A stretch of 46,237 nucleotides of DNA, from contig NZ_RPOH01000063.1 of NCBI RefSeq assembly GCF_003818135.1, forward strand, positions 1 to 46,237. Direction: 5' to 3'. The first letter of the stretch is position 1. Each line of letters begins with the position of its first letter. The notes below the pieces were generated by a model. The model had not been told where the DNA came from. It worked only from the letters and a program-made list of their open reading frames with translations, and did not search any database. This DNA comes from Buttiauxella warmboldiae (GTDB lineage Bacteria > Pseudomonadota > Gammaproteobacteria > Enterobacterales > Enterobacteriaceae). A program made the translations under genes and the position numbers. Of the stretch, positions 13,744 through 45,059 are shown piece after piece.

Positions 13744-13773
13744 CAACTTTGCTATTTATTTCAAGGAATCGTT

Positions 13774-14790: not shown

Positions 14791-14796
14791 AAACAG

Positions 14797-14829: not shown

Positions 14830-14855
14830 TGAAAACCCCAAACACGGAGCTCTCA

Positions 14856-15638: not shown

Positions 15639-15654
15639 CGAGGCTTTGTTGAAA

Positions 15655-20083: not shown

Positions 20084-20092
20084 GTGCGCACG

Positions 20093-26281: not shown

Positions 26282-26309
26282 AGCCATCGAATATTCGATG
26301 GCTTTTTTT
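26282..26309 (+). terminator. Intrinsic terminator of the symporter gene
   Basis: AGCCATCGA (26282-26290) pairs with TCGATGGCT (26295-26303) over an ATAT loop, followed by seven T (26303-26309). This is a canonical Rho-independent terminator 21 nt after the stop. Confidence 0.93.
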
Positions 26310-26737: not shown

Positions 26738-29700
26738 ATGTCCAGATCAAGAAACGACAATCCTATCCGTCCACGCCATCACCGTTTCGCCCTGGAATCG
26801 CGCCAGCTGTTTGATGGCGCGGCTGTCGCTGAGGCGGCAAATCATGCGGATAATCCGCTCGATACCACGCATCATGATAAGGCACCAGAGGTCGCCACGG
26901 CGGTATTGGTGCCGCCTGCGCCTGCGTCAATCACCGCACCAGCTGGCAATACTGCGCCGCACGAAGTTTATGTGGTTGATAGCCACGTACAGAACTGGCA
27001 ATCGCTGGTGAATCAATTGCCCGCAGGCAGCCGCGTGCTGGTGCTCGACTCAGCGCAGCCCGGGCTTGAGCAGATTAATGACGAGCTCAAAAATGATAAC
27101 AATATCAGCGCGATGCATATCATCAGCCACGGCGCTAACGATGAAATCACGCTGGGTCGCGACAAGCTTAACGCTCAAAATATTGCCCAGTATCAACAAC
27201 AATTAGCGCATCTTGGCGAGAAGCTCACCGCCGACGGCGATATTTTGCTGTACGGCTGCAACGTCACGGCAAAAGATACGCTGCTGATTACCCGCATGGC
27301 GGATTACACCCATGCTGATGTGGCTGCCTCAAATGACGAAACGGGCAGTGCGGATAACGCCGCTGACTGGTCGCTCGAATCTCATACCGGCGTGATTGAA
27401 ACGCGCTCTTTGTCGTTGGGGTACGCAGGCGTACTGGAGGCGACAGAAATTACGGCAGACGTAAAAGAGATGGTGGTTTCAGAGCCCTCATCTTTACGCC
27501 CGGGGGCGGAGAGTGGGCAATTTAGCGGCCTTGCCATCACCAGCAGCGATGCGAACGTCACGGTGGAGGTCCGGTTAACCAATCCGGGGGCGGGGGATTT
27601 AGTCAGCAGTAGTGAAACAGGAAAATTTCTGACGTTTAGCGGCGAGGTAGCCAGCGTGCAAGCCTGGTTAAATGCCCTCGGATTTACCGCCAGCGATACC
27701 GAACTTGGGCAACAATCCGCTACCACCAATGTCGACTTTTTCGTCTATAGCAGCACGGGTATTGATTATGTCCAGACGCATATCACTATTACCCCAGCCA
27801 ACGATCCGGTGGTGGTCAACGCCAGCCTGTTAGAGGTGCCGGAAAATAACGGCGCCGGTACGATCATCACGCAGGACGTACTTGCGGCGCTCGATCCTGA
27901 ATTACAGATAGGCTCGCAAATTGCGTCGCAGATTATCTACAGCCTGACGGCCATACCGCAATACGGTTATCTGACGCTAAGCGGCACTCGTCTGGGCGTC
28001 GGTTCCGTGTTTTCGCAGCAGGATGTGCGTGATGGCAAGCTGGCATATATCCACACCGCAACCGGCAGCTCACAAAATACCGCCGACACTTTTTCCGCAC
28101 AGGTCAACGATGGCGCAACGCCTATTGCTGATTCCGCACAGGTGACGCTAACGCTGGCGATGACTCCGCAAAACCAGGCACCCAGCGTAAGCGGCAGTGG
28201 GATTGTCTATGAGGGGCAGCCTGCCAATGCCGTGAATACCGGTAATGTCGGGCAATATATTGTGGCTGACAGCGGCGGCGATCCGCAGGATGGCGCTCTG
28301 ACGCTGACGATTACTTCGCTGCCCACTCACGGTACGCTCTATTTTAATGGCGTGCCGGTGATACAGGGCCAGCAAATTGACTATGCCGATCGCCATTTAT
28401 TGACCTATGCGAACAACGGCGAAGAGGGCAATACGCAGGATACGTTTGGGGTGCAGGTGACTGACCAGGGGGGCGGTACGGGCACGCCTGCCAGCAGCCC
28501 TGCGCTTATCCGGCTTGATATTCAACCGGTTGATGATAACCCGTTCTTAATTCCGGGCTCCACGCTGCAGGCACAAGTCACACCGGGCCTGGCAAGCGTT
28601 GTGCTGCTACCTGAAATGCTGGGCGCTCTGGATGATGACTCCCCCGCGAACCGGGTCAGCTTCATTGTTGACGCTGCCGGGCTAACCCACGGTTATCTGA
28701 CGCTAAATGGTTTGCGAATGCAAACCGGCGACACCTTTACCATGGATGATGTCGTCAAAGGTCGGGTTGCCTATGTGCAGTTTCTGAACGCATTCCCCGG
28801 CGGAGTCGACAAGTTTGATTTCCGCGTCATCGACCATTCCACCGCGCTGCACTGGAATCCGGATGGCACCACCTTTACTCGCCAGGGCGGGATTTATGAT
28901 GGCGATGCCGCTACCGACCAGCTAACCCGCACCGCTTTCACGTTGAACCTGGTGACGGTGACAAATAACCCGACGCCAGACGAAACGCCACCGCTGACTA
29001 TTCCGCCAATCGAAAACAACTCCGGGTATATCGGTGTCGATGTCACCAACCCTGGCAATCCCCCGCACGGCACTCTTCTGGAAGGGGGGACATTTACCCT
29101 TTCAGGAACCGGCAATATTAGCGCTGCCACGCCGGGCATGAGCTACGTTGTTCAGGGCGTAGGTCCGGAGCAAATTGTGTATACCTTTTTGGGCAGCGGC
29201 AGTGGCCAAACTGGCCTGACGGTGCTGAAAAGCGACGGCAATGGCGGTTTCACCGTGGTGAACCCTTTTGGCACTTTTACCCAGGCGGACCTGAATAACG
29301 GGTTAATCAGCCTGCGCCATGACGGCGGCGAACATTTCCAGTTTGATGGCCGCTTTTCGGTTTCCGCAGGGCAAGTGAGGCTGAACGCCCTGGGCCGCCC
29401 GGTTGCGGTGACCTGGGAGCCGGAAATGAAAGTTTTCGTGACGCCTGTTAACGATGCCCCTGAGATTAGCGGCTCGTCTAATACCGTGATAGTGGAAGGT
29501 GATACCGTAGTTATCACCCGCTCGCAGCTGCGGCCTGGCGACCCGGATGACGCCAATAGCACAAGCGCGTGGGAGAATGCTTCACAGCTGAATGGGCAAA
29601 ATAACTACGCCTTTAATCACGATGCCTCCGGCCCCGGCGCGCTGAAATTTGCCTTCCTCACATTGCCCGCTGGCGGAGTCCTGCAATATTTCAACGGCAG

Positions 29701-32700
29701 CGCCTGGGTAACAATAACGGATGCCGATATTGGCACATTACGCCTTGATGCCAGCCTGTTAACCGACGATAACAGCAGTGGCCTGCGCTTTGTCAGCAAC
29801 GGCTCGGAGGTGCGCAGCACCGAATTTGTCGCTTATGCCGTCGATCGCTGGGGGTTACAGTCCGCCAGCAACGCCACGGTGGGTATTGTTATCACCAACG
29901 TCAACGACAGCCCGCAAATTCCGCTGACGCCGGACAGCCCGGATATCGTGGTACCGCCCGATGCGCCAAATAATGTGGGTGATCAGCCAGCCAATAACCC
30001 GGCGACGGTGGTCGAAGGCAGTTATGTCCAGCTTGATAGTTCTCTGCTGCAGGCTTACGACCCGGACAGCTCCGCCGAACAAGTGCAGTTTACGTTAACC
30101 TCTGCTCCCGCCCACGGGCGTCTTGCCTATTCACGTGACGGGGTTAATTTCAGCTTTATCGGTAATGGCTCTACTTTCACCCAGACGGATATTAATAACG
30201 GTTATCTCTACTACCTGCACAACGGTGATGAGATCGCCGGCAGCGGTATCAATACCGATGGTTTTAACTTCACGCTGTCCGATGGCGATCGAGAACAAAC
30301 CAATAATCGCTTTGCGATTAACGTCACCCCTGCGAACGATAAACCGCTAGTGACAGCCCCTTCCGGGCCGATTGATATTGGTCTTTCCCATAATGTCAGC
30401 GGCTTTACCATTGCGGACCCGGATACCGCCAGCGGCTCAAGCGCAACCGACGTTCTGCAGACCACGGTGCGTTTGCTGCACGCCAACGGCAGCGCTTTTA
30501 GCCAGGCCGAATATAACGGCATCGTCATGCGGGCTGATACCGCCGGCGGTGCGTTAATCAGCGGCGGGCTCGATGGTTACCTGGTGATAACCGGTAGCGT
30601 CGCACAGATAAACGCAGCGCTTGCCGGTTTAACCGTGCTTTTCCCGAACGACCGCAACGCCAGCTACCAGGTACAAGTCATTACCGATGACCGTTTGCGT
30701 ACCGGTAACGGTCAGCTAGCCTCGGGGGCCAACGGTGGGCCGGTCAACCAGCCTGAGACTCCCGATTTTGGTGCCTCGCCCGGTATGGTTGATAGCCGAA
30801 ACTACAACTGGTATCAGGATAGCGTTCCAGCCAATAACGGCAATATTTCCGCCGGCCAGGTGGTGATTAACGCCTCAGAAATCGACGATCCCGGCGAGCT
30901 TATCGTCACCGATACTAACAAAACGACCTTCGAAGATCAGGCCACTTATATCGGCGGAAATTTTGTCATCAGCGATGTGGAGTCCAATGCTTTTGGTAAA
31001 CCGGTAACCGTGACATTAACCGTCGCGCAAGGTAGTCTGGGCATTGGCGGCGCAACGGGCGATACCGTATTCAATAACGTCACGATCGCGGGCGATAATT
31101 CAGGGACCCTGGTCCTGACCGGTACCGCCAGCGCCATTCAGGCGTTGCTAAACGATCCGACCAGCGGCTTGACATACGCCAGCGCGGCGAATGCCAACCA
31201 CGATCAAAACGGCGCGGCGGCAGGGGATATCACGCTAAATGTTCATCTGGATACCTCGGCTGCCACCGTCGGTGACAACACTGGCAGCGCCCCTCGCGAT
31301 GTGCAGATTGTAATAACGATGACTCCTGTCAACGATCCGCCAACCGTTACCGCGCCATCTGACACGATTTTGCTTGATAACAATGCGCCTGGCGGCAACA
31401 GCGTCAGCGGTTTTGTGATTGGCGATGTGGATGTTACCGATGCAGGCGGCATTGCGGCAGGCGAGCAGGATTGGGTGCAGGTCACCGTGCGGATCACCGA
31501 TGAAAATGGCACGCCGTTCCCCATAGGGCAGTATCGCGATCAACAAAACTCCGCCATCAATATTTCTTCGCTCAATACCACTACCGGCGTCACGGTGCAG
31601 GCTACCAGCCCGGATGGCGTTAACCCGCCTTCCAACGGCGTGAATGCACCGCTGGTGATCACCGGGACAGTTGCACAAATCAATGCTTATCTCGCCCAGC
31701 TGCAGGTGCGAATCAATGGTATCCAGATTGATGATGCGGATCGCTATTTCCGCGTCGAAGTTATCGTTGACGATCGCGTGCGTGATGCTAACGGTAACCT
31801 GACGACTACCGCCAACGGCGGTAACAATATCGGGCCGAATGGCATCGGCACCATACCGGTGCCGGTGGCGGCTGTCAGCCCGTATCAGGCTATTCCTTCA
31901 GGGCTTGAGCAGAACGTAGCCTCGGCTTACCGCACTATTTTCCAGAGCAGTATTAACGATCCGGCGCGCATCGAACTGGGCGGCAGCCCGCTCCTTGCTA
32001 CCGATGAAAGCGGCGCCATCGTTACTTTACCGCCGATTGTCCTCAGCGATGTGGATGCGGGCAGTCAGACCCTCACGGCCACGGTAAAACTTCCGACCGG
32101 GTTTACCTTTGTCGCGCCCGCGGGCAACGGTGGCACTATGACAGGGGCGGGAACAGACACGCTAACCTTTAGCGGATCTTACACGCAAATAAACAGCTGG
32201 CTAACCGGGCTGAAAGTCAGCCTGCCCGATGCGCCAGGCAGCGCCACCACGGCTGACTGGAACGGCAGTTTTGCTGTCACGGTGACCGTCAATGATGGCG
32301 GTAACTCCGGTTCGCGCCCGCTCGTCTTGCCAGGATTTACCGACCCGACGGCCGATCCGGGCCAGGTGGCCTACGAAGATGGTCCTACGGGCACCTCTTC
32401 TGCGCTGATTACCACGCGCACCTTTACCTTTACGGTCAACCCGGTGAATGACGCGCCCGTGGTGGTTGGCACGCCTTCGGCTAGCCTCCCGGCGCTGGAA
32501 GAAGACAAAACCGCTAGTACCATTGCGGGCAGCAGCGTCGAAAGCCTGTTTTCCGGATTCTACAACGACGATCGCGATACCATTGATAACACCGGCACCG
32601 GAGGTGCAGGCGGCAGCAGCGCTGATAGTTTCTACGGCATCGCTATTACACAGCTCGCCCTGGACCCGGCGCAGGGTGAATGGCAATATTCCCTTGATGG

Positions 32701-35700
32701 CGCGACATGGCTGGCGGTGGGCGCACGTAGCGACACCAATGCCCTGGTGTTGAACGGCGATGCGATGCTGCGCTTTGTTCCGGCTGCCGATTACTTTGGC
32801 AATTCGGCATCCCCTGGCGTGCGCCTGATCGAAACCAATAACAACGGCGATGTTTCCACGACGCCTGCGGTTCCGGTTAATGGCAGCGAAGTGGATCTTA
32901 ACGCCACGGGCGGCCACGGCGGCAGCTCTTTGTTTAGTGCAACCGTGATTACCCTGAGTATCGCCGTCACCAACATTAACGACCGCCCGACGCTTGGCAA
33001 CACGACGCTGACCATTGCGGAAGATACCTCAACTGCGCAAACCATCGGGCAGCTGTTCCAGTCGGTATACGGGGATGCAACCGATAATCAAACCGCTATT
33101 GCAGGCGGTGGCAACGCCAGTGGCGCGTTGGGATTTATCGGCATCTACGGCAATAGCACTGACCCGAGCAAAGGCCGCTGGGAATACAGTACGGATGGAA
33201 CCAGCTGGAGCACCGTGCCTTCTGACGTGGCTGAAAATAACGCGTTTGTCCTCGCCAGCACGACTCTGATCCGCTTTGTCCCTCTGCCTGACTACCACGG
33301 TCCGGTGACCGGCGGCTTGCAGATCCGCGCCTCGGACACTGCCGACCCCGCGCTAGCGCAGGTTGTTAATCAGCGCGTCAACTTTTTGGATGTCGCCAAT
33401 GGCAGCGATCCCACCTCGCGCTGGTCAAATACCGCGACGCTTTCCGTCACTATTACGACAGTGGCTGATATTCAGAATGATACCTTCACTACTCACGCCA
33501 ATGTTCCGCTGGTGAAAAACGCCAGCGATCTGCTGGCAAATGATTCGTTTAGCAATACGGATAAAAACGTTATCGTCGCCACACAGCCGGGCCACGGCAC
33601 ATTAACTGATGTCGGCGGTGTGCTGACCTACACGCCGAATGCGGGTTATGTCGGCACCGACAGTTACACTTACACGGTGGTCAGCGGCGGCGTTAGCGAA
33701 ACGGCTACGGTAACGATTAACGTCACTAACCGCGCGCCTGTAGCCGTAAACGATGCGGTCTCGCTGAACGAAGATACCTCCGCTACAGGTAACCTAATCG
33801 GTAATGACAGCGATCCAGATGGCGCGGTTGATACGCTGGCGGTGAAAAGTTTTACCGTTGAGGGGCAAACTTATCAGGCGGGAGCTTCCGTAACCCTGGC
33901 GGGCAGCCACGGCACGTTGCAAATTAATGCCGACGGCAGCTATACCTATACGCCCGGCGGTGACTGGCATGGTGATATTGCGGTGGCTTATATCGTCAGC
34001 GACGGCAATATGGGCGGCGATACTGCCGGAACCCTGGGTATCCACGTTAATGCCGTAAAAGATATCAAAGATGACGTTGAAATCGCCCATACCGGCACCG
34101 TGATTACCACGGAGGTGATGGCGAACGATACCTTTGTCAACAGCGACAGAACCGTGACAAGTTTTACCCAGCCTGAGTTTGGTACGGTCACCCTTGTAAA
34201 TAACCAGCTGATTTACACTCCACAAGCTGGTTTTGTTGGCAGCGACCGTTACACCTATACCGTTACCAGCGGCGGCGTGACCGAAACAGCGAACGTGTTT
34301 ATTCTGATGACCAACTCGCAGCCAACGGCCAGTAACCAGTTTGTTGCAACCGATGAAGACATACCGGTGAGCGGCAACGCCTTACGTGTTATTTTTGACC
34401 CGGATGGCGATGCGCTGGATGTCGTTGATTACCAGGTTAATGGCACGAACTATGCGGCAGGCGTCACCGCGACGATTACCAATGTCGGCTCCTTTGTTCT
34501 GTATGCCGACGGCACATATACCTTCACCCCGGTTGCTGACTGGAACGGCGCGGTACCGACTATCACCTTTAACGTTTCAGATGGCACGGCTCAGCCACCT
34601 ACGCAAAGTTCGCTGGATATTACGGTGCGCCCCGTTGTGGATGTTACCCGCGATACCGCCTCTACCCACGCAGGCACTGAGATCGTTATTGATGTATTGG
34701 CCAACGATCGTTTCAGCAATTCTGATCTGCTGATTACTGGAACGAGCACGCCACAGCACGGCACCGTGGTTATTGTAAACAACCAGCTGGTTTACACCCC
34801 CAATGCTGGCTATGTCGGTGATGACGCGTTTACTTACACAGTGCTCAGCGGCGGTATTGCAGAAACAGCCTCTGTAGATGTCACGATGACCAATACCGTG
34901 CCTGAATCCCGCGACTCGGTGCGGCGTACGCCGGAAGATACTGCCATTGTGAATGGCAATTTGCTGGAAGGAGCCACTGACGCCGACGGCGATAGGCTGA
35001 CGGTGACTGATTTCACCATTAACGGCGTGACGTATCAGGTGGGACAAACAGCCACTATTAATGGCAAAGGCACAATACTTGTCAGCGGCAACGGACTTTA
35101 CACTTTTACGCCAGTCGCTGACTGGAACGGTACCGTTGAACCTATCTCGTTTACCACCAGCGACGGCAATATCGGCGGTGAGGTGAGCAGAACGCTGGTT
35201 ATTATGGTGCAGTCGGTGGAGGATATTCTCCCGGATAATGCCAGCACCCACTCCGATAATGATATTACTATCAATGTGTTGGGTAACGATACCTTTACCA
35301 ACGTCAATCAAACCGTTACGGCTATTCGTGATGTCACAACGCTGGGTCGCGTTCTGGTGCTGAGCGATAACACCATTCGCTATACCCCACCGCCAGGTTT
35401 TGTGGGCACCGATACCTTTACCTATACCGTTACCAGCGGCGGCATCACCGAAACCAGTACCGTGACGGTGGTGGTGGAAAACACAGCACCGAACACCACG
35501 CCGATGAACCTGACGATGAATGAGGACGGCCCAGCGCTGGCGGGTTTACTGACCACCGGCGACGCTGACGGCGATGTACTGCGCGTAACTTCATTCCAGG
35601 TCAATGGCATAACAGGCGTATTTACGCCAGGTAACTTCGGTACTGCCACGGCAGATATTCCGGGCGTCGGCACCTTTACGCTAAGCTACGACCGCCATTA

Positions 35701-38700
35701 CACCTTCACTCCCGTGGCAGACTGGAATGGTACCGTACCGCAAATCACTTATGTCGTCACCGACGATAACGGCGGCGCCAGTGCTAGCGGGACGGTAAAT
35801 ATTGTGGTCACTCCGGTGGTTGATATCACTGATGATTCACTTTCCCTGCAGGCAGGAACCTCTTCTTCAGAGAACCTGCTGACCAACGACTCGTTTGAAA
35901 ATGGCGATAGGACCATTACCTCGGTTACGCAAGGACAACACGGTAGCGTGACCATTGGCAGCAACGGCGAGGTGACCTATACACCGTCATCGGATTATGT
36001 GGGTACCGATAGCTACACTTACACCGTGACCAGCGGTGGCAAAACTGAAACCGCCACGGTGAATGTTACGGTCACTAATACCGTGCCTGCAGCAACCCCG
36101 GACACCCAAACGGATATCGAAGACACAACGCTCAGCGGTAATGTGTTGACCAATGATTCAGACAGCGATGCCAGCGACAGCTTGCGCGTCATCAGTTTTA
36201 CTCTGCCAGGGGAAACCGTGGCGCATCTGGCGGGTGAAAAAGTCACTATTGACGATATTGGCACCTTAAAGCTGAATGCAGACGGCAGCTACGAGTTTGT
36301 GCCAGTGGCTGACTGGTACGGGGCGATCCCCGTGATTACCTACACCATCAGCGACGGTCATATCGATGGCACAGCCAGCAGCACATTAACGCTGGAGGTG
36401 ACCGAGGTGGCCGATATTGTTGATGATAGCAGCGCCACCCACGCGGGTGTGCCAGTAGCCATTGACGTGCTGGCTAACGATAATTTCGAAAATGGCGACA
36501 GACAAATTATTGCCACCAGCAACGGCTCATTTGGCACCACCACCATTGTTAACGGTAAAGTGGTTTACACCCCAGCTGCCGGTTATGTTGGCCGCGATAG
36601 CTTTATCTATACAGTGACAAGCGGTGGCATAAACGAAACAGCTACCGTGACGGTGGATATGACCAACACGCCACCTGTGGCGATCCCGGACACCAGCACC
36701 ACGCCTGAAGACCGCACCGCCTCCGGCAATGTGCTGGCCAATGACACCGATGCGGATGATGCAGATAAAGATGCTCTCACCGTCACCGAATTTACTGTCA
36801 ACGGCACACCGTATACGCCAGGCACTGCGCTCACTCTCACCGGGATGGGTGTATTGACCATGCAAGCTGATGGCCGCTGGAATTTTGTGCCGGTTGCGGA
36901 CTGGCACGGTACCTTGCCGGTGGTGGCTTACCAAATCAGCGATGGCAATACCGGTGGCGTTTCCAGCGCCTCGTTAAGCATCACTATCACACCAGTTCAG
37001 GATGCCTTTAACGACCTGATTTCCGTCAATGGCAATAGTTCGGTCACCAGCGATGTGCTGGCAAACGACACCTTCAGCAACAGTGATAAAGCCATCGTCG
37101 CCATTACCCAGGGCAACCACGGTACCGTCAGCATTGAAAACGGCCAAATTACCTACACGCCAAACCTCGGTTATGTCGGCGCAGACAGTTATACCTACAC
37201 GGTGTTGAGCGGTGGCATTCTGGAAACCGCTACCGTCGTAGTACGCGTTGCCGATCTGGTGCCGATTGTTAACCCGGAAGCGGTGATCACCCCCGAAAAC
37301 ACGCCGATCTCCGGCAACGTTTTAACCAACGACAGCGACCCGAACGGTGACCCGCTGCATATTTCTGTTTTCCAGGTGGGCGGCACTCGCTACAACGCGG
37401 GCGAAACCGCGCTGCTGGCCGGGATTGGCAGCCTGACGGTACAAACCGATGGCCGCTACACTTTCACGCCACAAACCAACTGGCATGGCTTCGTACCTGT
37501 GGTCACTTATACCGTCAGTGACGGCTACCCGGTCGGCGAAACTAACGGCACGTTACGCATTCTGGTGGCTCCGTCAGCAGAAATTCAGGTCAGGGAGTCG
37601 GGACTGACGCCGTTTGATCCGGGCGGGCAGGAGGCGAGCGGCACGCTGGATATATTGTCGCTGGATAAACTGCAAACGCTGACATTCCAGGGGAGGGTCA
37701 TCACCGGCGAACAGCTGCTGCAGCTCAACCCGCTGTCGCCAATCACTATCGAAACCGCGACCGGCACCATCACGCTGCTGGCCTATTACAGCCCGGCGGA
37801 TGGCGAAGCGCGTATTGATTACCGCTTCACTCTGCGTGAAGCCGTGTCGCAGCCGGGACTCGTCAGCACCCATAACGATTACGACGTGCAGGTGAACGGC
37901 GTCACTATCGGCCAGTTGCGCATTACGGTATTTAACGATCGTCCTGGCGCCAGCGATAACAGTGTGGAAATTTTGCAGGATCAAGGTCAGGAGTCGGCGA
38001 GCGGCAACGTGTTTAGCGATGACCGCATCGGTGCCGATGGTGCGGCGATTAATGGTCCTGTCACCGCAGTCGCGTCAGAAAATACCGGCAATACAGGCAC
38101 CCCCGGCGGCAATACCCGCGGGCAATACGGCATCTTGTTACTCGACCGTCAGGGCAACTGGCAATACCAGGTGAACAGCAGCGATCCGCGCGTTGCTGCG
38201 CTTGAAGCGAACCTCACCCTGAGCGACGTGTTTGTTTACACCATTGTCGATAGCGACGGCGACGTAAGCGAAGCACGGTTGACCATTTTTATTCATGGCA
38301 TTACCGCCATGCCAAACACCGACCGCCCTGATGGCGATCAGTTATTTGGTCGTGAAGAAGAGACGCTGCTCGCCGCCTACGGCCAGAGCTATGAGCCGGG
38401 CTTGTTTATTCTGCCACTCGTCTATGATTTACAAAGCGACGCTACGGGTCTGCAGACCCGGCTGAACAGCCGATTTGCCGCCTATGGCTACGGTATAGAG
38501 CATGCCAATGCGCCGGTTATGCAGCAGGCAGTGCTGTTCACCCGGTGGTATAGCGCCAGCCGTGAACAGCGCAGCTTGCCGGGCATAGAGAGCAACGGGC
38601 TTGGGCAAAATTCCCTCGGGAATACGTTTGGCCCGTTTGCTATCGGGCAGGCCGATGAGCGTAGTTCGTTTGCGCAACCCCCAGCGGTGCAGGAAACGCC

Positions 38701-38827
38701 GCAGGATGAGCCAACAGTGCTTATCGCACAGGGAGCACCACCGTTATCCATGCAGCTCGCTGCGCTGGAAAAACACATATTGGCGTCTGGAAAGCAGATT
38801 ACGGTCCCGACAATCACTCGCCGGTAG
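26738..38827 (+). CDS. Giant repeat adhesin with DUF4347 N-terminal domain
   Basis: The protein has 4029 residues (about 410 kDa), acidic and almost Cys-free in its repeats. In order: a basic leader (1-18) with no Sec signal; the motif LESRQLFDGAA (19-29), resembling the LEPR-XLL/LEPRxLFD motif of giant exported proteins; a DUF4347 domain (about 77-232) with HIISHG (His131) and LYGCN (Cys174); CSPG/cadherin-like repeats (about 240-1200, e.g. FTQTDINNGYLYYLHNGDE); a more divergent beta-repeat zone (about 1200-2243); seven tandem supermodules of about 195 residues (2244-3610), each a Big_9/tandem-95 module (LANDxFxNxDR ... YTPxxGYVGxDxYTYTVTSGG) plus a cadherin-like module (NEDT ... GNVLxNDxDxDG); a VCBS-like segment (about 3735-3865); and a unique tail. 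I see no RTX nonapeptides. It is the probable substrate of the export proteins encoded downstream and likely mediates surface adhesion or biofilm formation. Confidence 0.92.
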   Translation: MSRSRNDNPIRPRHHRFALESRQLFDGAAVAEAANHADNPLDTTHHDKAPEVATAVLVPPAPASITAPAGNTAPHEVYVVDSHVQNWQSLVNQLPAGSRVLVLDSAQPGLEQINDELKNDNNISAMHIISHGANDEITLGRDKLNAQNIAQYQQQLAHLGEKLTADGDILLYGCNVTAKDTLLITRMADYTHADVAASNDETGSADNAADWSLESHTGVIETRSLSLGYAGVLEATEITADVKEMVVSEPSSLRPGAESGQFSGLAITSSDANVTVEVRLTNPGAGDLVSSSETGKFLTFSGEVASVQAWLNALGFTASDTELGQQSATTNVDFFVYSSTGIDYVQTHITITPANDPVVVNASLLEVPENNGAGTIITQDVLAALDPELQIGSQIASQIIYSLTAIPQYGYLTLSGTRLGVGSVFSQQDVRDGKLAYIHTATGSSQNTADTFSAQVNDGATPIADSAQVTLTLAMTPQNQAPSVSGSGIVYEGQPANAVNTGNVGQYIVADSGGDPQDGALTLTITSLPTHGTLYFNGVPVIQGQQIDYADRHLLTYANNGEEGNTQDTFGVQVTDQGGGTGTPASSPALIRLDIQPVDDNPFLIPGSTLQAQVTPGLASVVLLPEMLGALDDDSPANRVSFIVDAAGLTHGYLTLNGLRMQTGDTFTMDDVVKGRVAYVQFLNAFPGGVDKFDFRVIDHSTALHWNPDGTTFTRQGGIYDGDAATDQLTRTAFTLNLVTVTNNPTPDETPPLTIPPIENNSGYIGVDVTNPGNPPHGTLLEGGTFTLSGTGNISAATPGMSYVVQGVGPEQIVYTFLGSGSGQTGLTVLKSDGNGGFTVVNPFGTFTQADLNNGLISLRHDGGEHFQFDGRFSVSAGQVRLNALGRPVAVTWEPEMKVFVTPVNDAPEISGSSNTVIVEGDTVVITRSQLRPGDPDDANSTSAWENASQLNGQNNYAFNHDASGPGALKFAFLTLPAGGVLQYFNGSAWVTITDADIGTLRLDASLLTDDNSSGLRFVSNGSEVRSTEFVAYAVDRWGLQSASNATVGIVITNVNDSPQIPLTPDSPDIVVPPDAPNNVGDQPANNPATVVEGSYVQLDSSLLQAYDPDSSAEQVQFTLTSAPAHGRLAYSRDGVNFSFIGNGSTFTQTDINNGYLYYLHNGDEIAGSGINTDGFNFTLSDGDREQTNNRFAINVTPANDKPLVTAPSGPIDIGLSHNVSGFTIADPDTASGSSATDVLQTTVRLLHANGSAFSQAEYNGIVMRADTAGGALISGGLDGYLVITGSVAQINAALAGLTVLFPNDRNASYQVQVITDDRLRTGNGQLASGANGGPVNQPETPDFGASPGMVDSRNYNWYQDSVPANNGNISAGQVVINASEIDDPGELIVTDTNKTTFEDQATYIGGNFVISDVESNAFGKPVTVTLTVAQGSLGIGGATGDTVFNNVTIAGDNSGTLVLTGTASAIQALLNDPTSGLTYASAANANHDQNGAAAGDITLNVHLDTSAATVGDNTGSAPRDVQIVITMTPVNDPPTVTAPSDTILLDNNAPGGNSVSGFVIGDVDVTDAGGIAAGEQDWVQVTVRITDENGTPFPIGQYRDQQNSAINISSLNTTTGVTVQATSPDGVNPPSNGVNAPLVITGTVAQINAYLAQLQVRINGIQIDDADRYFRVEVIVDDRVRDANGNLTTTANGGNNIGPNGIGTIPVPVAAVSPYQAIPSGLEQNVASAYRTIFQSSINDPARIELGGSPLLATDESGAIVTLPPIVLSDVDAGSQTLTATVKLPTGFTFVAPAGNGGTMTGAGTDTLTFSGSYTQINSWLTGLKVSLPDAPGSATTADWNGSFAVTVTVNDGGNSGSRPLVLPGFTDPTADPGQVAYEDGPTGTSSALITTRTFTFTVNPVNDAPVVVGTPSASLPALEEDKTASTIAGSSVESLFSGFYNDDRDTIDNTGTGGAGGSSADSFYGIAITQLALDPAQGEWQYSLDGATWLAVGARSDTNALVLNGDAMLRFVPAADYFGNSASPGVRLIETNNNGDVSTTPAVPVNGSEVDLNATGGHGGSSLFSATVITLSIAVTNINDRPTLGNTTLTIAEDTSTAQTIGQLFQSVYGDATDNQTAIAGGGNASGALGFIGIYGNSTDPSKGRWEYSTDGTSWSTVPSDVAENNAFVLASTTLIRFVPLPDYHGPVTGGLQIRASDTADPALAQVVNQRVNFLDVANGSDPTSRWSNTATLSVTITTVADIQNDTFTTHANVPLVKNASDLLANDSFSNTDKNVIVATQPGHGTLTDVGGVLTYTPNAGYVGTDSYTYTVVSGGVSETATVTINVTNRAPVAVNDAVSLNEDTSATGNLIGNDSDPDGAVDTLAVKSFTVEGQTYQAGASVTLAGSHGTLQINADGSYTYTPGGDWHGDIAVAYIVSDGNMGGDTAGTLGIHVNAVKDIKDDVEIAHTGTVITTEVMANDTFVNSDRTVTSFTQPEFGTVTLVNNQLIYTPQAGFVGSDRYTYTVTSGGVTETANVFILMTNSQPTASNQFVATDEDIPVSGNALRVIFDPDGDALDVVDYQVNGTNYAAGVTATITNVGSFVLYADGTYTFTPVADWNGAVPTITFNVSDGTAQPPTQSSLDITVRPVVDVTRDTASTHAGTEIVIDVLANDRFSNSDLLITGTSTPQHGTVVIVNNQLVYTPNAGYVGDDAFTYTVLSGGIAETASVDVTMTNTVPESRDSVRRTPEDTAIVNGNLLEGATDADGDRLTVTDFTINGVTYQVGQTATINGKGTILVSGNGLYTFTPVADWNGTVEPISFTTSDGNIGGEVSRTLVIMVQSVEDILPDNASTHSDNDITINVLGNDTFTNVNQTVTAIRDVTTLGRVLVLSDNTIRYTPPPGFVGTDTFTYTVTSGGITETSTVTVVVENTAPNTTPMNLTMNEDGPALAGLLTTGDADGDVLRVTSFQVNGITGVFTPGNFGTATADIPGVGTFTLSYDRHYTFTPVADWNGTVPQITYVVTDDNGGASASGTVNIVVTPVVDITDDSLSLQAGTSSSENLLTNDSFENGDRTITSVTQGQHGSVTIGSNGEVTYTPSSDYVGTDSYTYTVTSGGKTETATVNVTVTNTVPAATPDTQTDIEDTTLSGNVLTNDSDSDASDSLRVISFTLPGETVAHLAGEKVTIDDIGTLKLNADGSYEFVPVADWYGAIPVITYTISDGHIDGTASSTLTLEVTEVADIVDDSSATHAGVPVAIDVLANDNFENGDRQIIATSNGSFGTTTIVNGKVVYTPAAGYVGRDSFIYTVTSGGINETATVTVDMTNTPPVAIPDTSTTPEDRTASGNVLANDTDADDADKDALTVTEFTVNGTPYTPGTALTLTGMGVLTMQADGRWNFVPVADWHGTLPVVAYQISDGNTGGVSSASLSITITPVQDAFNDLISVNGNSSVTSDVLANDTFSNSDKAIVAITQGNHGTVSIENGQITYTPNLGYVGADSYTYTVLSGGILETATVVVRVADLVPIVNPEAVITPENTPISGNVLTNDSDPNGDPLHISVFQVGGTRYNAGETALLAGIGSLTVQTDGRYTFTPQTNWHGFVPVVTYTVSDGYPVGETNGTLRILVAPSAEIQVRESGLTPFDPGGQEASGTLDILSLDKLQTLTFQGRVITGEQLLQLNPLSPITIETATGTITLLAYYSPADGEARIDYRFTLREAVSQPGLVSTHNDYDVQVNGVTIGQLRITVFNDRPGASDNSVEILQDQGQESASGNVFSDDRIGADGAAINGPVTAVASENTGNTGTPGGNTRGQYGILLLDRQGNWQYQVNSSDPRVAALEANLTLSDVFVYTIVDSDGDVSEARLTIFIHGITAMPNTDRPDGDQLFGREEETLLAAYGQSYEPGLFILPLVYDLQSDATGLQTRLNSRFAAYGYGIEHANAPVMQQAVLFTRWYSASREQRSLPGIESNGLGQNSLGNTFGPFAIGQADERSSFAQPPAVQETPQDEPTVLIAQGAPPLSMQLAALEKHILASGKQITVPTITRR
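33467..37567 (+). repeat. Seven tandem ~585-bp coding repeats in the adhesin
   Basis: Residues 2244-3610 are seven successive A-B pairs. A modules begin D-I-x-x-D-x-x-x-x-H-x-G and contain LANDTF-x-N-x-D and YVGTDSYTYTVTSGG-x-x-ETA; B modules contain x-x-EDT-x-x-x-GN and TFTPVADWNG-x-x-P-x-ITY. Mean period is about 195 residues. The copies are diverged at DNA level, so simple slippage is less likely than in near-identical arrays, but recombination between copies is possible. Confidence 0.85.
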
Positions 38828-38864
38828 AGGCTCAGAGCAACTGTTTAAGATGGAAATAATCACG

Positions 38865-40772
38865 ATGAACGCAACCATGGTGGCTGGACAAAAAAAACGT
38901 GGTGTGCCGTTAGTCAAACCGATTGCCGGGTTGATTGCGGTACTGATTTTGGCAGGCTGTGGCACCATTAAACCGGAACCGTTAACTCAGGATGAGATAA
39001 CAGCGCGCGTGAATCGCGACAGGGCAGAAATGTACCGTGGGCAAGAGGCGCTTCGTGGCCCGATGACCTTATCCGACGCGATGGCCCGGGCGTTAAAATA
39101 TAACCTCGACTACCGTCTGAAAATGATGGAAACCGCGCTATCGCGCAGTTTGCTGGAGGTTTCGCAACAGGACATGCTGCCCAAACTGATGGCGGATGCG
39201 GGCTATCGCTGGCGTGATAACGACTCGGGGGGCACCAGTGTCGGTATCGACGATGGCGTGATAAGCCTGCGTCCTTCCACCTCTGAGGAGCGCGAACATT
39301 ATCTTTCCAGCGCCACCTTCTCCTGGGACGTGCTCGACTTCGGGATGAGCTACTTCCGCGCCAAACAACAGGCCGATGAGGTGAATATCGCCGAAGAGCG
39401 CCGCCGCAAAGTGCTGCAAAATATTGTCCAGGAAGTGCGTGATGCCTACTGGCGAGCCTTAGGCGCACAACGTTTGCTCGACGAAACCCAGCCGCTGGCC
39501 GAGCAAATTGCCCAGGCGCTGGATAAAACCCGTGAAGCAGAACAGGCCGGGATCCTGCCGCCCATTGAAGGGCTGGAATATCAGCGCGCCCTGCTTGACG
39601 CCATGACGTTGCTCAATCAGAAACGTCAGCAAATGGAGCTGGCGAAAAGCGAGCTGACCGCCCTTATCAATTTACCGCCGGGCACTCCGCTGGTGCTGCA
39701 GGACACGCCAGCGCCGTTGGCTCCTGCACCGACCAATATCGACAAGCTTGAGCAAATGGCGCTGGAACGCCGCCCGGAGCTGCGTGAAGAAGATTACAAA
39801 ACGCGTATCGATAGCTATGAAACCAAACGTCAGATTGCCTCGCTGTTCCCGAACCTCAACCTGTTCGCCGGGTTGAATTATGACTCCAACGACTATCTCT
39901 ACAATAACAACTGGATTGAGGGGGGCATCGGCGTTTCGATGAACCTGTTCAAACTGCTGAGCATCCCGGCCATCAGCCGCGCCAACGATGCCCGTACCCA
40001 AACCGAAGATGCCCGCCGCATGGCGTTAAGCATGGCGGTTCTGACGCAGGTTCGCGTGGCGACCGAGCGCTATAAGCTGGCCTCCTATGACTTCCAGATT
40101 GCAGAGCAGTCGGCACTGGTTGATCAACGTCTGGCGAGTATTTCCCGCGCCGGTTCCGATAACTCCCTGACCAGCGATCTGGAAACGTTGCGCACCCAGG
40201 CGCGCTCCATCGTTTCGCGCTTCCAGGAAGCGTCATCCTATGCGGAAGCGCAGGCGGCTTATGGACGCGTGCTGAACTCCGTCGGTATCGATTTGCTGCC
40301 GGATCGGGTTAATCAAACCGACGTTGCCAGCCTATCACGACAAATTAACGCCAGTTTACGCCAGCAGGAAAGCAGCGTATTTGCCCATACTGCCGGTATT
40401 GCTGTGGAAAAACACCCGATTGCAATCCAGATCGCACGGCTGCCGTCCGGCGTATCACGCGCCAGCATTGAGCAGTCCGTGGGCCGGGTGATTGCAGCCA
40501 ACCACCTGTCGCTTGAGCCGTCGCCGAACAGCCTCAACCTGCAAATGAGCTTTAACATCGGCGCCAGCAACGGCACCCGTAAAGGCGTGTGGACGATGCG
40601 CGTCAGGGATGCGACCGGCGCGGAAGTGTTAACCCGTCGATACACCAGCTACCTACCAAACGAAACCAGCACGCGCTCCATCAGCGCGCTGGCTGAAGCG
40701 GCAACGCTCTCGATTACCAGCGATTTACAAAGGCTTGCTGGGGCAACGCCCGTTCTGACCGCGACGCCATGA
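38865..40772 (+). CDS. TolC-family outer-membrane efflux lipoprotein
   Basis: From ATG 38865 the protein has 635 residues; alternative starts at 38850 and 38877 change only the leader. A lipoprotein signal ends in LAGC (Cys32) with Gly at +2, so outer-membrane sorting is expected. The TolC/OEP repeats follow (about 75-500): MTLSDAMARALKYNLDYRLKMMETALSRS, EVRDAYWRALGAQ, and in the second half NLFAGLNYDSNDYLYNNNWIEGGIGVSMNLFKL. Residues about 505-635 form an extra C-terminal domain not found in TolC or LapE (GIAVEKHPIAIQIARLPSGV ... WTMRVRDATGAEVLTRRYTSYLP). It begins 37 nt after the adhesin and overlaps the next gene region; it is the probable outer-membrane exit channel for the adhesin. Confidence 0.88.
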   Translation: MNATMVAGQKKRGVPLVKPIAGLIAVLILAGCGTIKPEPLTQDEITARVNRDRAEMYRGQEALRGPMTLSDAMARALKYNLDYRLKMMETALSRSLLEVSQQDMLPKLMADAGYRWRDNDSGGTSVGIDDGVISLRPSTSEEREHYLSSATFSWDVLDFGMSYFRAKQQADEVNIAEERRRKVLQNIVQEVRDAYWRALGAQRLLDETQPLAEQIAQALDKTREAEQAGILPPIEGLEYQRALLDAMTLLNQKRQQMELAKSELTALINLPPGTPLVLQDTPAPLAPAPTNIDKLEQMALERRPELREEDYKTRIDSYETKRQIASLFPNLNLFAGLNYDSNDYLYNNNWIEGGIGVSMNLFKLLSIPAISRANDARTQTEDARRMALSMAVLTQVRVATERYKLASYDFQIAEQSALVDQRLASISRAGSDNSLTSDLETLRTQARSIVSRFQEASSYAEAQAAYGRVLNSVGIDLLPDRVNQTDVASLSRQINASLRQQESSVFAHTAGIAVEKHPIAIQIARLPSGVSRASIEQSVGRVIAANHLSLEPSPNSLNLQMSFNIGASNGTRKGVWTMRVRDATGAEVLTRRYTSYLPNETSTRSISALAEAATLSITSDLQRLAGATPVLTATP

Positions 40773-40780
40773 GGCTGTAT

Positions 40781-41608
40781 ATGAATAACCATAAAAAGAG
40801 CATCGCTACGCTGCTATTTACGCTTATCGGTTTTTCCGCGCCGGGCTTTGCCGCGGACCCTGCTGTTGCGGCTCCCGCTGAGGTAAAAGCGCCCGCAGCG
40901 CAAGGCAGCACCAGAGTGCGTTTCCTGGTGCTCGCTAACCGTGAAAGCCCGCTTTCCAGCGTAGTGGCGGGGCGAATGGCGAAAATCAATGTGCAACTGG
41001 GCGATCCCGTCACGCAGGGCAAAGTGCTGGCCAGCATGGACTGTAGCGATTTGGTGGCGCGTAAGAACGCCGCTCAGGCGGAGTTTCAGGCCGCTCAGCT
41101 GCGTTATGAAGCCAAAGCCAAGCTGCAGGGGCTGCAATCGGCAGCCGCGCTGGAAGTGGGGTTAGCCGCATCAGAGGTGAACCGTACCAAAGGCCAGATG
41201 GGGATTTTCGACGCCCAGCTGGCACAGTGCCGTTTTGTTGCGCCGTTCAACGGGCGCGTGGCAAAAATCTACGTCAAAGAGGGGCAGGGAATAGGCGCCG
41301 GTGCGCCGGTGATTGACCTGGTCGGTAACGGGACTCTGCGTGCGCGCTTAAATGTGCCCTCAAGCTGGGTGGCATGGCTGAAAATTGGCTCGCAGCTTAA
41401 TGCGTCAGTCGGTGAAACCGGGAAGCAATATCCCCTGACCGTGACCAACATTAGCGGCAAAGTCGATGCCGTCAGCCAGACCATCGAAATCGAAACCCGT
41501 TTCCCGGAAAAAACCGATGACGTACTGCCGGGTATGAGTGGCCAGGCCGTTGCTATCTGCCCGGCGGATGAAAACCGCTGCCTGACAAGCGGAGCTGCCA
41601 ATTCGTGA
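40781..41608 (+). CDS. Secreted periplasmic adaptor (HlyD/RND membrane-fusion family)
   Basis: From ATG 40781 (six bases after GAGG) the protein has 275 residues; ATG 40769, overlapping the previous stop, would add MRLY. A Sec signal peptide (about 1-25, ending GFAA) is followed by a lipoyl/barrel-sandwich half (VAGRMAKINVQLGDPVTQGKVLASMDCSDL), a short alpha-hairpin (about 85-130), the second lipoyl half (CRFVAPFNGRVAKIYVKEGQGIGAGAPVIDL) and a beta-barrel domain. It is shorter than AcrA-type adaptors. No lipobox is visible, so it may be soluble in the periplasm, bridging the inner-membrane HlyD-like proteins to the TolC-like channel. Confidence 0.87.
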   Translation: MNNHKKSIATLLFTLIGFSAPGFAADPAVAAPAEVKAPAAQGSTRVRFLVLANRESPLSSVVAGRMAKINVQLGDPVTQGKVLASMDCSDLVARKNAAQAEFQAAQLRYEAKAKLQGLQSAAALEVGLAASEVNRTKGQMGIFDAQLAQCRFVAPFNGRVAKIYVKEGQGIGAGAPVIDLVGNGTLRARLNVPSSWVAWLKIGSQLNASVGETGKQYPLTVTNISGKVDAVSQTIEIETRFPEKTDDVLPGMSGQAVAICPADENRCLTSGAANS

Positions 41609-42957
41609 TCTCAAGTACAGCCTTCTACCAGTTAGCTGCAAGGGTAGAAGCCATAAGCAACTCCGCCGAGTTGGGCTTCGCGATATGCAATGAAACACGC
41701 CAGCTGGTGGATTACCGTCAGGCGGCGCTGTTGTCCCTTGCGCCGAACAACCGCGCAAAATTGATCGCGCATTCCGGGTTAAGCGATACCGACAACAATA
41801 CGCCGTATGCCCTGTGGCTTTCTGAGGTGGCCAAAGAGATTGCCCCTGATTGCCGGGCATTACCGCCGGAGGCGCGCGTGCTGGCGCTTTCGCCCACACA
41901 GCTCAGCGCGGCCCTCGCCCCGCAGTGGAGTGAATGGTTACCTGCACACGTCTGGGTATTGCCATTAATCGGCGCCGACGGCGAAATTCATGCGCTCTGG
42001 TTTTTAGGGCGCGATGAGCCATGGCCAACGTCGCTCGCTCCTGCCTCCGCGGAGTTTGCCCTGCTGCAGCTGAGCGGTTTATACGGTTACGCCTGGTGGG
42101 CGTTAACCGCGCGCCCCTCCCGTTTCAGGCAGTTCTGGCAACGCAATATCGGGCGGCGTTCTGGCTATATCGTGCTGGCCGTGCTGCTGGTGTTGTGTAT
42201 CCCGGTGCGTGAATACACGCTGGTGCCTGCTGAAATTATCTCGCTGCACAGCCAGGTGATTGCCGCCCCTGACTCCGGCGTTATCAAGCGTATGGTGGTG
42301 TTGCCCAATAGCAATGTGGTGAAAGGGCAGGTGCTGGCCACGCTTGACGACACCACGCTGCATAACCGTCTGGCAGTGGCGCAGGCGGAGCTGAAAACCG
42401 CGGAGATCACGCTGCATCAGGCATCCCAGCAGGCGATTGAAGATCAGCAGGCGAAGTCAGAGCTGGCCATGGCGGAAGGCAGATGGCGCGAGAAAAAAGT
42501 TGAAGTTGAGTCGCTCAGCCGCGACCTTGAAAAGCTGACGATTCGTGCCCCGGAAAGCGGCGTTTTTGTCTATTCCGACCCGGATGACTGGGCCGGGCGT
42601 CCAGTACAAACCGGCGAGCGCATTGGCTTGCTGGCAGACCCTGGCCGTCTTGGCGTTCGAGCCTGGGCGCCGGTGAGCGAGTCCACTAACCTGAAGCGCG
42701 GCGCGCCGATGAAAATCTTTTTGAAAGTTGCGCCGCTGGATTCATTAAACGCCAGGCTGGGATACGCCGGTTATCAAACGGTGGAAGCGCCAAACGGCGT
42801 GGCCAGCTATTTGCTGCGCGGCACGCTGGAAGATGAGCCTGGCGTCGCCCGTATTGGCCTGCAGGGAACCGCTCGCGTGACGGGGGACTGGGCATTACTC
42901 GGCTACCTGCTGCTGCGCCGCCCGATAGCTACGTTACGTGCCGGGAGCGGCTGGTGA
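41605..42957 (+). CDS. GAF-like/HlyD membrane-fusion protein
   Basis: The protein has 450 residues and starts at GTG 41605 in a GTGA overlap with the preceding stop. Residues about 1-175 look like a cytoplasmic GAF-like sensor domain (ISNSAELGFAICNETRQLVDYRQAALLSL ... VLPLIGADGEIHALWFLGRDEP). One membrane helix (about 192-205, YIVLAVLLVLCIPV) leads to the periplasmic HlyD part: lipoyl half (VIAAPDSGVIKRMVVLPNSNVVKGQVLATLDD), coiled coil (about 250-310), lipoyl half (LTIRAPESGVFVYSDPDDW) and beta-barrel. It probably links the inner-membrane M50 protein with the periplasmic adaptor. The GAF assignment is from pattern and length; the HlyD part is secure. Confidence 0.85.
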   Translation: MISSTAFYQLAARVEAISNSAELGFAICNETRQLVDYRQAALLSLAPNNRAKLIAHSGLSDTDNNTPYALWLSEVAKEIAPDCRALPPEARVLALSPTQLSAALAPQWSEWLPAHVWVLPLIGADGEIHALWFLGRDEPWPTSLAPASAEFALLQLSGLYGYAWWALTARPSRFRQFWQRNIGRRSGYIVLAVLLVLCIPVREYTLVPAEIISLHSQVIAAPDSGVIKRMVVLPNSNVVKGQVLATLDDTTLHNRLAVAQAELKTAEITLHQASQQAIEDQQAKSELAMAEGRWREKKVEVESLSRDLEKLTIRAPESGVFVYSDPDDWAGRPVQTGERIGLLADPGRLGVRAWAPVSESTNLKRGAPMKIFLKVAPLDSLNARLGYAGYQTVEAPNGVASYLLRGTLEDEPGVARIGLQGTARVTGDWALLGYLLLRRPIATLRAGSGW

Positions 42958-45059
42958 TAAGCGGTACGGCAACTGCTCCACCGTGGCCTGCGCTACGTGA
43001 TGAGCTGCGGCTTAATAGCGCGGGCAGCAACCGAGACGGATCTCCGGCCTGGCACCTCGCAGATCCGGTGCGCAACCTGTTTTTCCGCCTCGGCTGGCTG
43101 GAAATTGAGATCCTCAAACGCTGGCAGCTGGCGGATGCCGGGAAAATAGCGCAGGCGATCAACCAGCAAACCACGCTAAACGTCGATGCCGAAGATATCA
43201 AAGCTTTCGTGCTGTTTTTACAACAGCAGCAGCTGCTGCGTAGCACCCGTTACCACCCGGCATCATCGGTTTGGAAGTGGCTGTTACACAGCTATTTGTT
43301 TATCCGCATTCCGCTGGTTCACCCGGAAAAAGCGCTGCGTAGAGCGCTGCCGTGGTTGCAGCCGCTGTTTAGCAAAACTTTTCTGTGGCTAACGCTGTTT
43401 GTGGCGATAACCGGCATAGTGCTTGCGGCACGCCAGTGGGATACGGTGGTCGCTACCCTGCACAATTCGGTGAGCTGGCATGGCGCGCTGGCCTTTGCTA
43501 TCGCACTGGTGTTTTCTAAATGCTGGCATGAAATGGGCCATGCGCTTGCCGCAACACGGCATGGCGTGCGGGTCGGCCATATGGGGATCGCGTTACTGGT
43601 GATGCTGCCGATGGCCTACACCGACACCGGAGAGAGCTGGAAGCTAATTCGTTCGCGCGAGCGGCTAAAGATTGCCGCCGCCGGGATTGCTGCGGAGCTG
43701 GTGCTGGCGGCCTGGGCGACATTATTGTGGTCATTCGCCCCGGAAGGCAGCGTCAAAAACGCGTTGTTTTTCCTTGCCACCACCGCCTGGATTATGACGG
43801 TGGTAGTCAACGCCAGCCCGTTTATGCGTTTTGACGGCTACTATATTCTGAGCGATTGGCTGGATTTTCCGGGGCTACATGAACGCGCGGGAAACTGGGC
43901 GAAACGCGCGCTGCGCTGGCACCTGTTCGGGATTAACGATCCCAAACCCGATAACATTACCCCGGCCTTCGCCCGTTTTCTGACGGTATTTGCCTTTGCC
44001 ACCTGGATCTATCGCCTGCTGTTGTTTATCGGCATCGCGGTCATTATCTACCACGCCTTTTTTAAGGCCCTGGGGGTAATTCTGTTTTTGATAGAGATTG
44101 CGACTTTCGTGGTGCGACCCATGCTCGGAGAAATAAAAACCTGCTGGGCTCGCCGCCAGGAAAGTCAGCCTTTTTACCGTCGCAGAGTGCTGCTGGTGGT
44201 GATGACCGGGATGCTGGTTATTTTCGTGCCCTGGTCGAATAAAGTGAGCCTGCCTGGGGTCATTGAAGCCGGTTTTGTCCAGCCGATCTATACGCCATAC
44301 GGCGCTCGTCTTGAGAAAACTCTCGTCACCGACGGGCAGGAAGTGAAAGCAGGACAGCCGCTGTTTGAGCTTATTGCGCCGCTGCCTGAAACATCGCTGC
44401 GCAAAGCGCAGGAGATGCGTCGCGCCTGGGAGTTCAGCGCACGGGGGGCGTTAGGGCTTGATAAAGATGGGCCGGCAAAACAGATACTCGCTGAACAAAT
44501 GGCGCGTCAGTACTCGCTCCAGCAAAGCGCGGGCAATAATGAGCTGCTCCGTCTGCGGCTAGTGGCTGCCGCTAACGGGCGTATCGAAGATCGCGATGTT
44601 TCTCTGCAGCCCGGAAGCTGGGTCGCGCCCACTACGCACATCGCCACGCTGGTGAACAGCGAACGCTGGCGGGTGAAAGCGCTGGTGGGGGAAGAGGATC
44701 TGGCGCGTTTACGCGTGGGAGCTCAGGCCAAAATTTATCAGCACGGTAAGTGGCAACCGCTTATCGGACGCGTAGTTTCTATCGACCATAGCGTGGTTAC
44801 GCGCCTGCCATCTTTGCTGCTGGCAAAAGATCACGGCGGCCCGGTGCCGCTCAACCCGACGACGCAGGCCAAAGATCTGCGTCCGCAGGGCGTCTGGTAT
44901 CGCGTATCGATTGAAGGTGCAGGCAATGCGGCGACGGTCGGCCGGGAAAATCTTGCGGATATCTCGGTTGCCAGCGAGCGTCAGAGCTTTGCCCACCGCT
45001 GGTTTAATAGCATTTCATTGATGTTGATTCAGCAGACGGGGATGGGGAAAGAGGGGTAA
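42954..45059 (+). CDS. PqqD-like/M50 metalloprotease/HlyD fusion membrane protein
   Basis: The protein has 701 residues, starting at GTG 42954 in a GTGA overlap with the upstream gene. The N-terminus (about 30-105, WHLADPVRNLFFRLGWLEIEIL ... LQQQQLL) resembles the PqqD-like domain seen in YydH-type peptide metalloproteases. A multi-helix M50 (site-2 protease) core follows with HEMGH at 192-196 and the third ligand in SPFMRFDGYY (Asp294), so the zinc site looks intact. After a last helix (about 411-425) comes a periplasmic lipoyl/HlyD-like part (VQPIYTPYGARLEKTLVTDGQEVKAGQPLFEL ... VAAANGRIEDRDVSLQPGSWV). It replaces the ABC ATPase expected in a type I system. Role in adhesin export or processing is inferred from the operon. 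Confidence 0.88.
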   Translation: MISGTATAPPWPALRDELRLNSAGSNRDGSPAWHLADPVRNLFFRLGWLEIEILKRWQLADAGKIAQAINQQTTLNVDAEDIKAFVLFLQQQQLLRSTRYHPASSVWKWLLHSYLFIRIPLVHPEKALRRALPWLQPLFSKTFLWLTLFVAITGIVLAARQWDTVVATLHNSVSWHGALAFAIALVFSKCWHEMGHALAATRHGVRVGHMGIALLVMLPMAYTDTGESWKLIRSRERLKIAAAGIAAELVLAAWATLLWSFAPEGSVKNALFFLATTAWIMTVVVNASPFMRFDGYYILSDWLDFPGLHERAGNWAKRALRWHLFGINDPKPDNITPAFARFLTVFAFATWIYRLLLFIGIAVIIYHAFFKALGVILFLIEIATFVVRPMLGEIKTCWARRQESQPFYRRRVLLVVMTGMLVIFVPWSNKVSLPGVIEAGFVQPIYTPYGARLEKTLVTDGQEVKAGQPLFELIAPLPETSLRKAQEMRRAWEFSARGALGLDKDGPAKQILAEQMARQYSLQQSAGNNELLRLRLVAAANGRIEDRDVSLQPGSWVAPTTHIATLVNSERWRVKALVGEEDLARLRVGAQAKIYQHGKWQPLIGRVVSIDHSVVTRLPSLLLAKDHGGPVPLNPTTQAKDLRPQGVWYRVSIEGAGNAATVGRENLADISVASERQSFAHRWFNSISLMLIQQTGMGKEG

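Follow-up and report, generated by a model that had tools for sequence, protein, structure and literature searches.

The window analysed here, a stretch of 46,237 nucleotides from Buttiauxella warmboldiae (contig NZ_RPOH01000063.1), carries on its + strand a five-gene locus (26738-45059) that encodes a giant adhesin, a TolC-like outer-membrane lipoprotein, two adaptors and an inner-membrane protein in which an RRE-like domain, an M50 protease core and a HlyD-like part are fused. We propose that this locus is a dedicated export machine for giant surface proteins that works without an ATP-binding cassette (ABC) exporter, starting from an N-terminal leader of the LEPR-XLL type; we put the probability of this reading at roughly 55%. 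The first-pass annotation had singled out the locus as a candidate undescribed system. This assessment is supported: our literature search, with most subscription papers outside its reach, gave no description of this gene set. By its distinct signal and its distinct inner-membrane component the locus is a candidate for a new kind of system, with export as its proposed function.

The positions of all five genes were confirmed. The adhesin gene (26738-38827, 4029 aa, the proposed substrate) is followed after 22 or 37 nt by the gene of the TolC/OEP-family lipoprotein (38850-40772), depending on whether the start of the latter is placed at 38850 or 38865; its open frame begins at 38601. The lipoprotein carries the lipobox LAGC, matches OEP in Pfam at E 9.7e-36 and falls under the TIGR01844 cut-off. 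Next come a periplasmic adaptor of the RND_mfp type that has a hydrophobic stretch at its N-terminus (40769-41608, 109.8 bits vs a cut-off of 94.9), a second adaptor (41605-42957) made of a GAF-like N-terminal domain, a single hydrophobic segment around residues 182-209 taken as one transmembrane segment (TM) and a HlyD part, and the fusion itself (42954-45059, 701 aa). HlyD_3 is present in three of the locus proteins (Pfam). The close packing of five co-directional genes, as first annotated, is borne out by coordinates and junction sequences; the two GTGA overlaps announced for the last two junctions are both there (41605 and 42954), and a third 4-nt overlap, ATGA at 40769, had been left out. 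Tandem DNA repeats were not found in the adhesin gene, and promoter scans stayed close to the shuffled level.

To see how general this arrangement is, an alignment of four fusion sequences served as query for a scan of named genomes. At least 574 relatives were found among at least 594 matched stretches, of which the 80 best were retained. Alignments A4 and A5 comprise 61 and 33 sequences respectively, window included; matches of the A3 profile to designed TIM barrels, covering some 30 residues, were ignored. The 80 stretches extend at most 10 kb on either side of the fusion, the shortest measuring 4.6 kb, so a gene lying farther away would be missed. The outer-membrane factor, the membrane fusion protein (MFP), the GAF-HlyD adaptor and the fusion are all present in 60 of the 80 loci, which confirms the gene set as a recurrent one and rules out a frame or assembly artefact. 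The 20 others include loci cut by contig ends, loci where giant genes fill the flank and three where the fusion comes first (L075, L085, L091). Relatives were found in Variovorax, Comamonas, Pseudomonas, Pectobacterium, Pantoea, Phytobacter and Aeromonas, and also in Chromobacterium, Caballeronia, Magnetococcales, several desulfo-bacteria and Nitrospira. The fusion is present in 10 of the 12 genomes of the window's genus, the exceptions being G005 and G010.

An ABC exporter was not found in the five-gene cluster of the window by Pfam and NCBIfam scans, and the same family models recognised no ATPase among the five genes. In ten flanking open reading frames (ORFs) the sole ABC gene is that of the phosphonate importer PhnC (12958-13743), 13 kb away. 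The stretches of the 80 loci likewise gave no ABC exporter that includes a membrane domain: 13 ABC-like ORFs in 10 of them, considered as possible overlooked exporters, all match only the nucleotide-binding part (a second, 1-bit ABC match in L074 was disregarded). Two ABC neighbours in a more distant clade of the fusion were also rejected, one being ABC-F-like and, by reading of its sequence, without membrane part (L145), the other MsbA-like, under cut-offs and with an opposite-strand gene in between (L235). The original statement that the locus is devoid of an ABC gene and that the M50 fusion takes its place is upheld, and generalises to the 80 loci. Compared with type I secretion, the HlyD/MFP adaptor and the TolC-family channel are present and the linked ABC exporter is absent. 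The other hallmark is missing as well: neither GGxGxD (RTX) repeats nor, in Pfam and NCBIfam scans, a known type I target family at the C-terminus were found on the adhesin. The feature that defines type I secretion is lacking from the locus.

The second line of evidence concerns the N-terminus of the adhesin, which had been described as a DUF4347 adhesin; its leader had been overlooked, as had the RRE-like fold that would recognise it. The proposed export leader (26738-26821) consists of a basic tail and LESRQLFDGA, a LEPR-type signature at residues 19-28. A common signature, L-E-x-R-x-[LMVIF]-F-D-[GA]-[AV], preceded by an often basic stretch, lies near the adhesin N-terminus in the window and 12 of the 80 loci. 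The six-frame ORFs, 1.12 million residues in all, hold it at no other place; in 60 loci a large ORF on the + strand extends past the 5' edge of the stretch, which puts its start out of view. A Sec-like hydrophobic core is lacking in all 13 leaders measured (Kyte-Doolittle means over 16 residues reach at most 0.31 to 1.44, 0.31 for the window). The NCBIfam LEPR-XLL model NF012209, which describes an N-terminal signature of 24 positions, matched 7 of the 8 relatives tried, over its cut-off in L146, L147 and L159; it gave no match to the window leader at E<=10. This model stands for a named domain.

The leader tracks the fusion, the RRE-like protein of the locus, across genomes. In a phylum survey of 396 genomes the signature, searched as a DNA pattern, a form in which it has enough specificity for counting genomes, was found in 52: 49 of the 66 fusion-positive genomes vs 3 of the 330 fusion-negative ones (G475, G725, G741). 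Because of kinship among genomes, p-values on such counts overstate independence, here as in the surveys below. The reversed pattern, used as a control, was found in 3 of the 396, none of them fusion-positive. A class survey of 323 genomes gave 51 with a fusion match, 13 of which, at 570 bits or more, form the clade of the window, the rest being treated as a distant clade; the signature was present in 6 of the 13 top-scoring genomes and in 5 of the 310 others, the reversed pattern in 2. In a set of 60 relatives, the leader and a strong fusion match coincide: 13 genomes have both and 47 have neither. The distant clade (30 loci; L142-L151, L218-L237) carries an N-terminal LExR signature in 11 of 30 loci, on large or edge-cut ORFs, in forms such as LEPRILLSAD, LEPRLLLSAD, LEDRILFSAD and LEQRVVLDAA; the FD[GA] form was absent from the ORFs of these 30 loci when searched with a neutral pattern, and a DUF4347-like ORF is found in 12 of them. 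Leader and fusion clade would thus appear, from their sequences, to change together, as recognition would predict, although this is not proof. We consider the linkage between leader and fusion well supported. Three genomes (G415, G428, G471) each hold four or five leader signatures beside two matches to the fusion; in them, a single machine may handle more than one substrate. Two signatures (G407:C1:963279 and G595:C21:87802) lie about 1 Mb from the fusion gene or on another contig, and are possible substrates in trans.

The fusion is made up of three parts. Residues 10-97 (42981-43244) form, in the predicted model, a fold of the RRE (PqqD-like) type. The label PqqD given at first had no Pfam match behind it in the window protein; it is the predicted fold that agrees with it. 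A PDB sequence profile of this part returned nothing useful. The M50 core (Pfam 40.1 bits vs a cut-off of 27.2) contains the zinc motif HEMGH at residues 192-196 (43527-43541), with H192, E193 and H196 invariant in 73 of 73 sequences, and the equally invariant D294 of RFDGYY (43833-43835), the presumed third zinc ligand: with HExxH, a distal Asp and a membrane core, its sequence is that expected of a site-2-type protease. A MacA/HlyD-like periplasmic adaptor part follows at residues 428-675 (44235-44978). In one relative (L228:9203-11171) the fusion gene is split across two overlapping frames.

From these elements we infer a sequence of leader binding, M50 cleavage, passage through the HlyD and TolC components, and a driving force. 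The adhesin would present its short basic tail and LE-x-R-x-x-F-D-[G/A]-A signature, as co-occurrence suggests; the RRE-like domain of the inner-membrane fusion would bind this leader in the manner of lasso-peptide RREs, a step to which co-occurrence and predicted fold both point. Judging from the conserved catalytic residues and by analogy, the M50 intramembrane protease would then engage the leader and most likely cleave it, which would commit the chain. Gene neighbourhood suggests that the chain would cross the periplasm by way of the HlyD part of the fusion, the GAF-TM-HlyD adaptor and the MFP, and leave by the TolC-like lipoprotein. The DUF4347 domain just behind the leader (residues 77-223, 26966-27406) may finally cut or anchor the adhesin outside. 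Its predicted fold is caspase/CHAT-like with a His-Cys dyad (H131, C174), as in clan CD cysteine peptidases, and in the model it looks like a cysteine protease of that type; C174, within an invariant Gly-Cys (codon 27257-27259), is the sole cysteine among the 4029 residues of the adhesin, the body of which is made of Big_9, cadherin, Ig and tandem-95 repeats. Proton motive force, external folding of the repeats, or both, could drive the process. The GAF-like domain hints that a small ligand may influence export; GAF was matched in 6 of 33 relatives of the second adaptor, the window copy had no Pfam match in that region, and a PDB profile of this adaptor yielded no useful GAF match. A further-reaching version of this scheme is tentative: an ATPase-free machine in which the M50 fold would itself serve as the gate in the inner membrane, opening once the leader is bound or cleaved, and in which proton motive force and the folding of repeats on the outer side would pull through a chain of thousands of residues, in a pathway with its own LEPR-XLL-type class of signals in Proteobacteria and Nitrospira.

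Several points weigh against ABC-less export. The system is known here from genes and predicted folds, export of its proteins being a proposal, and it is hard to see by what path an intramembrane protease fold could let such a long chain through. The RRE match was drawn from the predicted model of the whole protein, not from the isolated domain, and winged-helix folds are common. The strict signature is missing from 17 of the 66 fusion-positive genomes; among 10 of these that were inspected, four have, next to the cluster, a large ORF with a variant leader (LEPRLLLDAA, LERRIAFDAA, LEQRIAFDAA, LEPRILLDAA), in one the adhesin starts outside the stretch, and in five no leader was found nearby. 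The adhesins also share a C-terminal motif: strict [FL]SxQLxxA is present in 26 of 45 adhesins, compared with 4 of the 705 ORFs that served as controls and with 1.6% of 900 internal windows. Finally, ABC exporters are widespread in the genomes concerned. A type I secretion system (T1SS) model for ABC exporters, applied at E<=1e-90 to the best 22-26 first-look candidates of each genome, matched in 44 of 51 fusion-positive genomes (38 from the phylum survey, together with the 13 that scored highest in the class survey), 16 of 16 named genomes and all 12 of the genus; the match includes the N-terminal part in 33 of the 51 and 13 of the 16. In G397 (4.6 kb away, other strand) and G443 (14 kb), whose clusters belong to the clade of the window, such a gene lies less than 20 kb from the cluster; each adjoins, as judged by eye, an adaptor-like gene of its own. 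Every positive genome probably encodes an ABC exporter of some kind, and one could act in trans.

The strongest rival, which we nevertheless regard as unlikely, builds on these genes: the adhesin would be a type I substrate whose exporter is encoded elsewhere, and the fusion a mere adaptor with a processing protease. ABC_membrane matches the genome of the window at 11 places, and at three of these the open frame exceeds 700 aa (ABC_membrane is present in 13 of 14 control genomes); the common C-terminal motif would fit a type I signal. On the other hand G005 and G010 keep their T1SS-type ABCs yet are without the locus, the 80 stretches hold no ABC exporter and the adhesin no RTX repeats. Moreover, seven of the 51 genomes (G203, G313, G304, G337, G595, G448, G470, 95-100% complete) have no T1SS-type match among their best candidates, and in 11 more the matches start only at model position 113 or beyond, without the C39-like N-terminal part. 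Across the sets, 38, 5 and 3 of the 66 fusion-positive genomes of the phylum survey entered this ABC test (G000 in both of the two smaller sets), 21 being outside it. A dedicated T1SS ABC is not required, because seven of the 51 have none by this measure; a general exporter such as MsbA may be borrowed. A consistently co-occurring dedicated T1SS ABC, the genome-level part of the finding that was to speak against the first-pass proposal, did not emerge. Among the routes that proposal had left open, another energy source is compatible with these data and a borrowed dedicated T1SS ABC is disfavoured by co-occurrence.

A two-step route is less likely again: the adhesin would rely on Sec or some other general pathway to get across the inner membrane, and the cluster would process it and handle the outer membrane. 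SecA could in this case supply the energy for a set without recognised ATPase, but the 13 measured leaders are devoid of a Sec-like core, and TolC/HlyD assemblies usually take their substrate from an inner-membrane partner. Least probable is a type I variant in which the fusion replaces the ABC exporter and reads the [FL]SxQL tail, the LEPR region being a LapA-like retention element: the enriched C-terminal motif, which might act as a stop or anchor or else as a signal like those of T1SS substrates, speaks for it, as does the retention and later N-terminal cutting of LapA-type adhesins described in PMC9430717, but it is the N-terminal signature that follows the fusion and its clade, the fusion bears a predicted fold of the leader-reading type, and the window adhesin, with LSMQLAA (38744-38764), is a near-match that fails both the strict and the loose pattern.

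ABC-less export from an N-terminal leader has partial parallels in known systems. As in LapBCE, BapBCD and SiiCDF, a giant repeat adhesin stands beside TolC-like and HlyD-like genes; the differences are the lack of an ABC gene and of RTX repeats, the N-terminal leader and the RRE-like/M50/HlyD inner-membrane fusion. Lasso-peptide B1/B2 proteins (6jx3) also couple an RRE-type fold with a leader peptidase, but here the protease is an M50 and not of the cysteine type, a HlyD part is fused to it, and the proposed substrate has about 4000 residues and is not a small peptide. The M50 part resembles EpeP/YydH and daptide M50 proteins (NF058609, NF041824; E 2.1e-6 and 7.6e-51, both under curated cut-offs), whose substrates are small ribosomally synthesized and post-translationally modified peptides (RiPPs); EpeP is believed to cleave and export. 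We know of no HlyD fusion or TolC-like partner in these systems. The locus itself is not of the RiPP kind, its linked gene encoding a 4029-aa repeat protein instead of a small modified core peptide, with no tailoring enzyme among the five genes. The effectors Tce1/Tce2 (9qpe; PMC13323088) are type VI secretion cargo, not part of an adhesin. The nearest working analogy is that of the peptidase-containing ABC transporters (PCAT/AMS exporters), where recognition, cleavage and export of a leader substrate are united in one inner-membrane protein (PMC8277102); these use a C39 cysteine protease and an ABC ATPase, whereas here there is an M50 and no ATPase. According to a comparative study (PMC6963963), a "peptidase M50" is restricted to Pectobacterium aroidearum. 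Besides P. aroidearum (L061), the present cluster is found in P. versatile and P. carotovorum (L049, L056), so the M50 of that study may be another gene.

If export is as we propose, several consequences follow. The energised partners of TolC/HlyD-type exporters named in PMC8277102 are of the ABC, resistance-nodulation-division (RND) and major facilitator superfamily (MFS) types; this would be the first such exporter, to our knowledge, without any of them. If the link between leader, RRE, M50 and HlyD is right, widespread giant surface proteins would have their own export route and a recognisable signal of their own; LEPR-XLL, a domain known to us by name only, would gain a function and a partner, and leader recognition in the RiPP style would be used in protein secretion. 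The system also makes an old question testable: whether an intramembrane protease fold can pass a polypeptide.

The surroundings of the locus in the window are of other kinds. Upstream of the adhesin gene, a terminator-like hairpin (26282-26303) follows a sodium/solute symporter gene; farther upstream lie phosphonate (phn) genes including PhnC and PhnM (12958-21920), a heavy-metal P-type ATPase (4298-6193) and an HflK-like open frame (312-2279). Past the locus, a flagellin gene (FliC/FljB, 45743-46237) begins and runs off the contig end; in another genome (G003, L010), the ORF neighbouring the locus differs from this flagellin.

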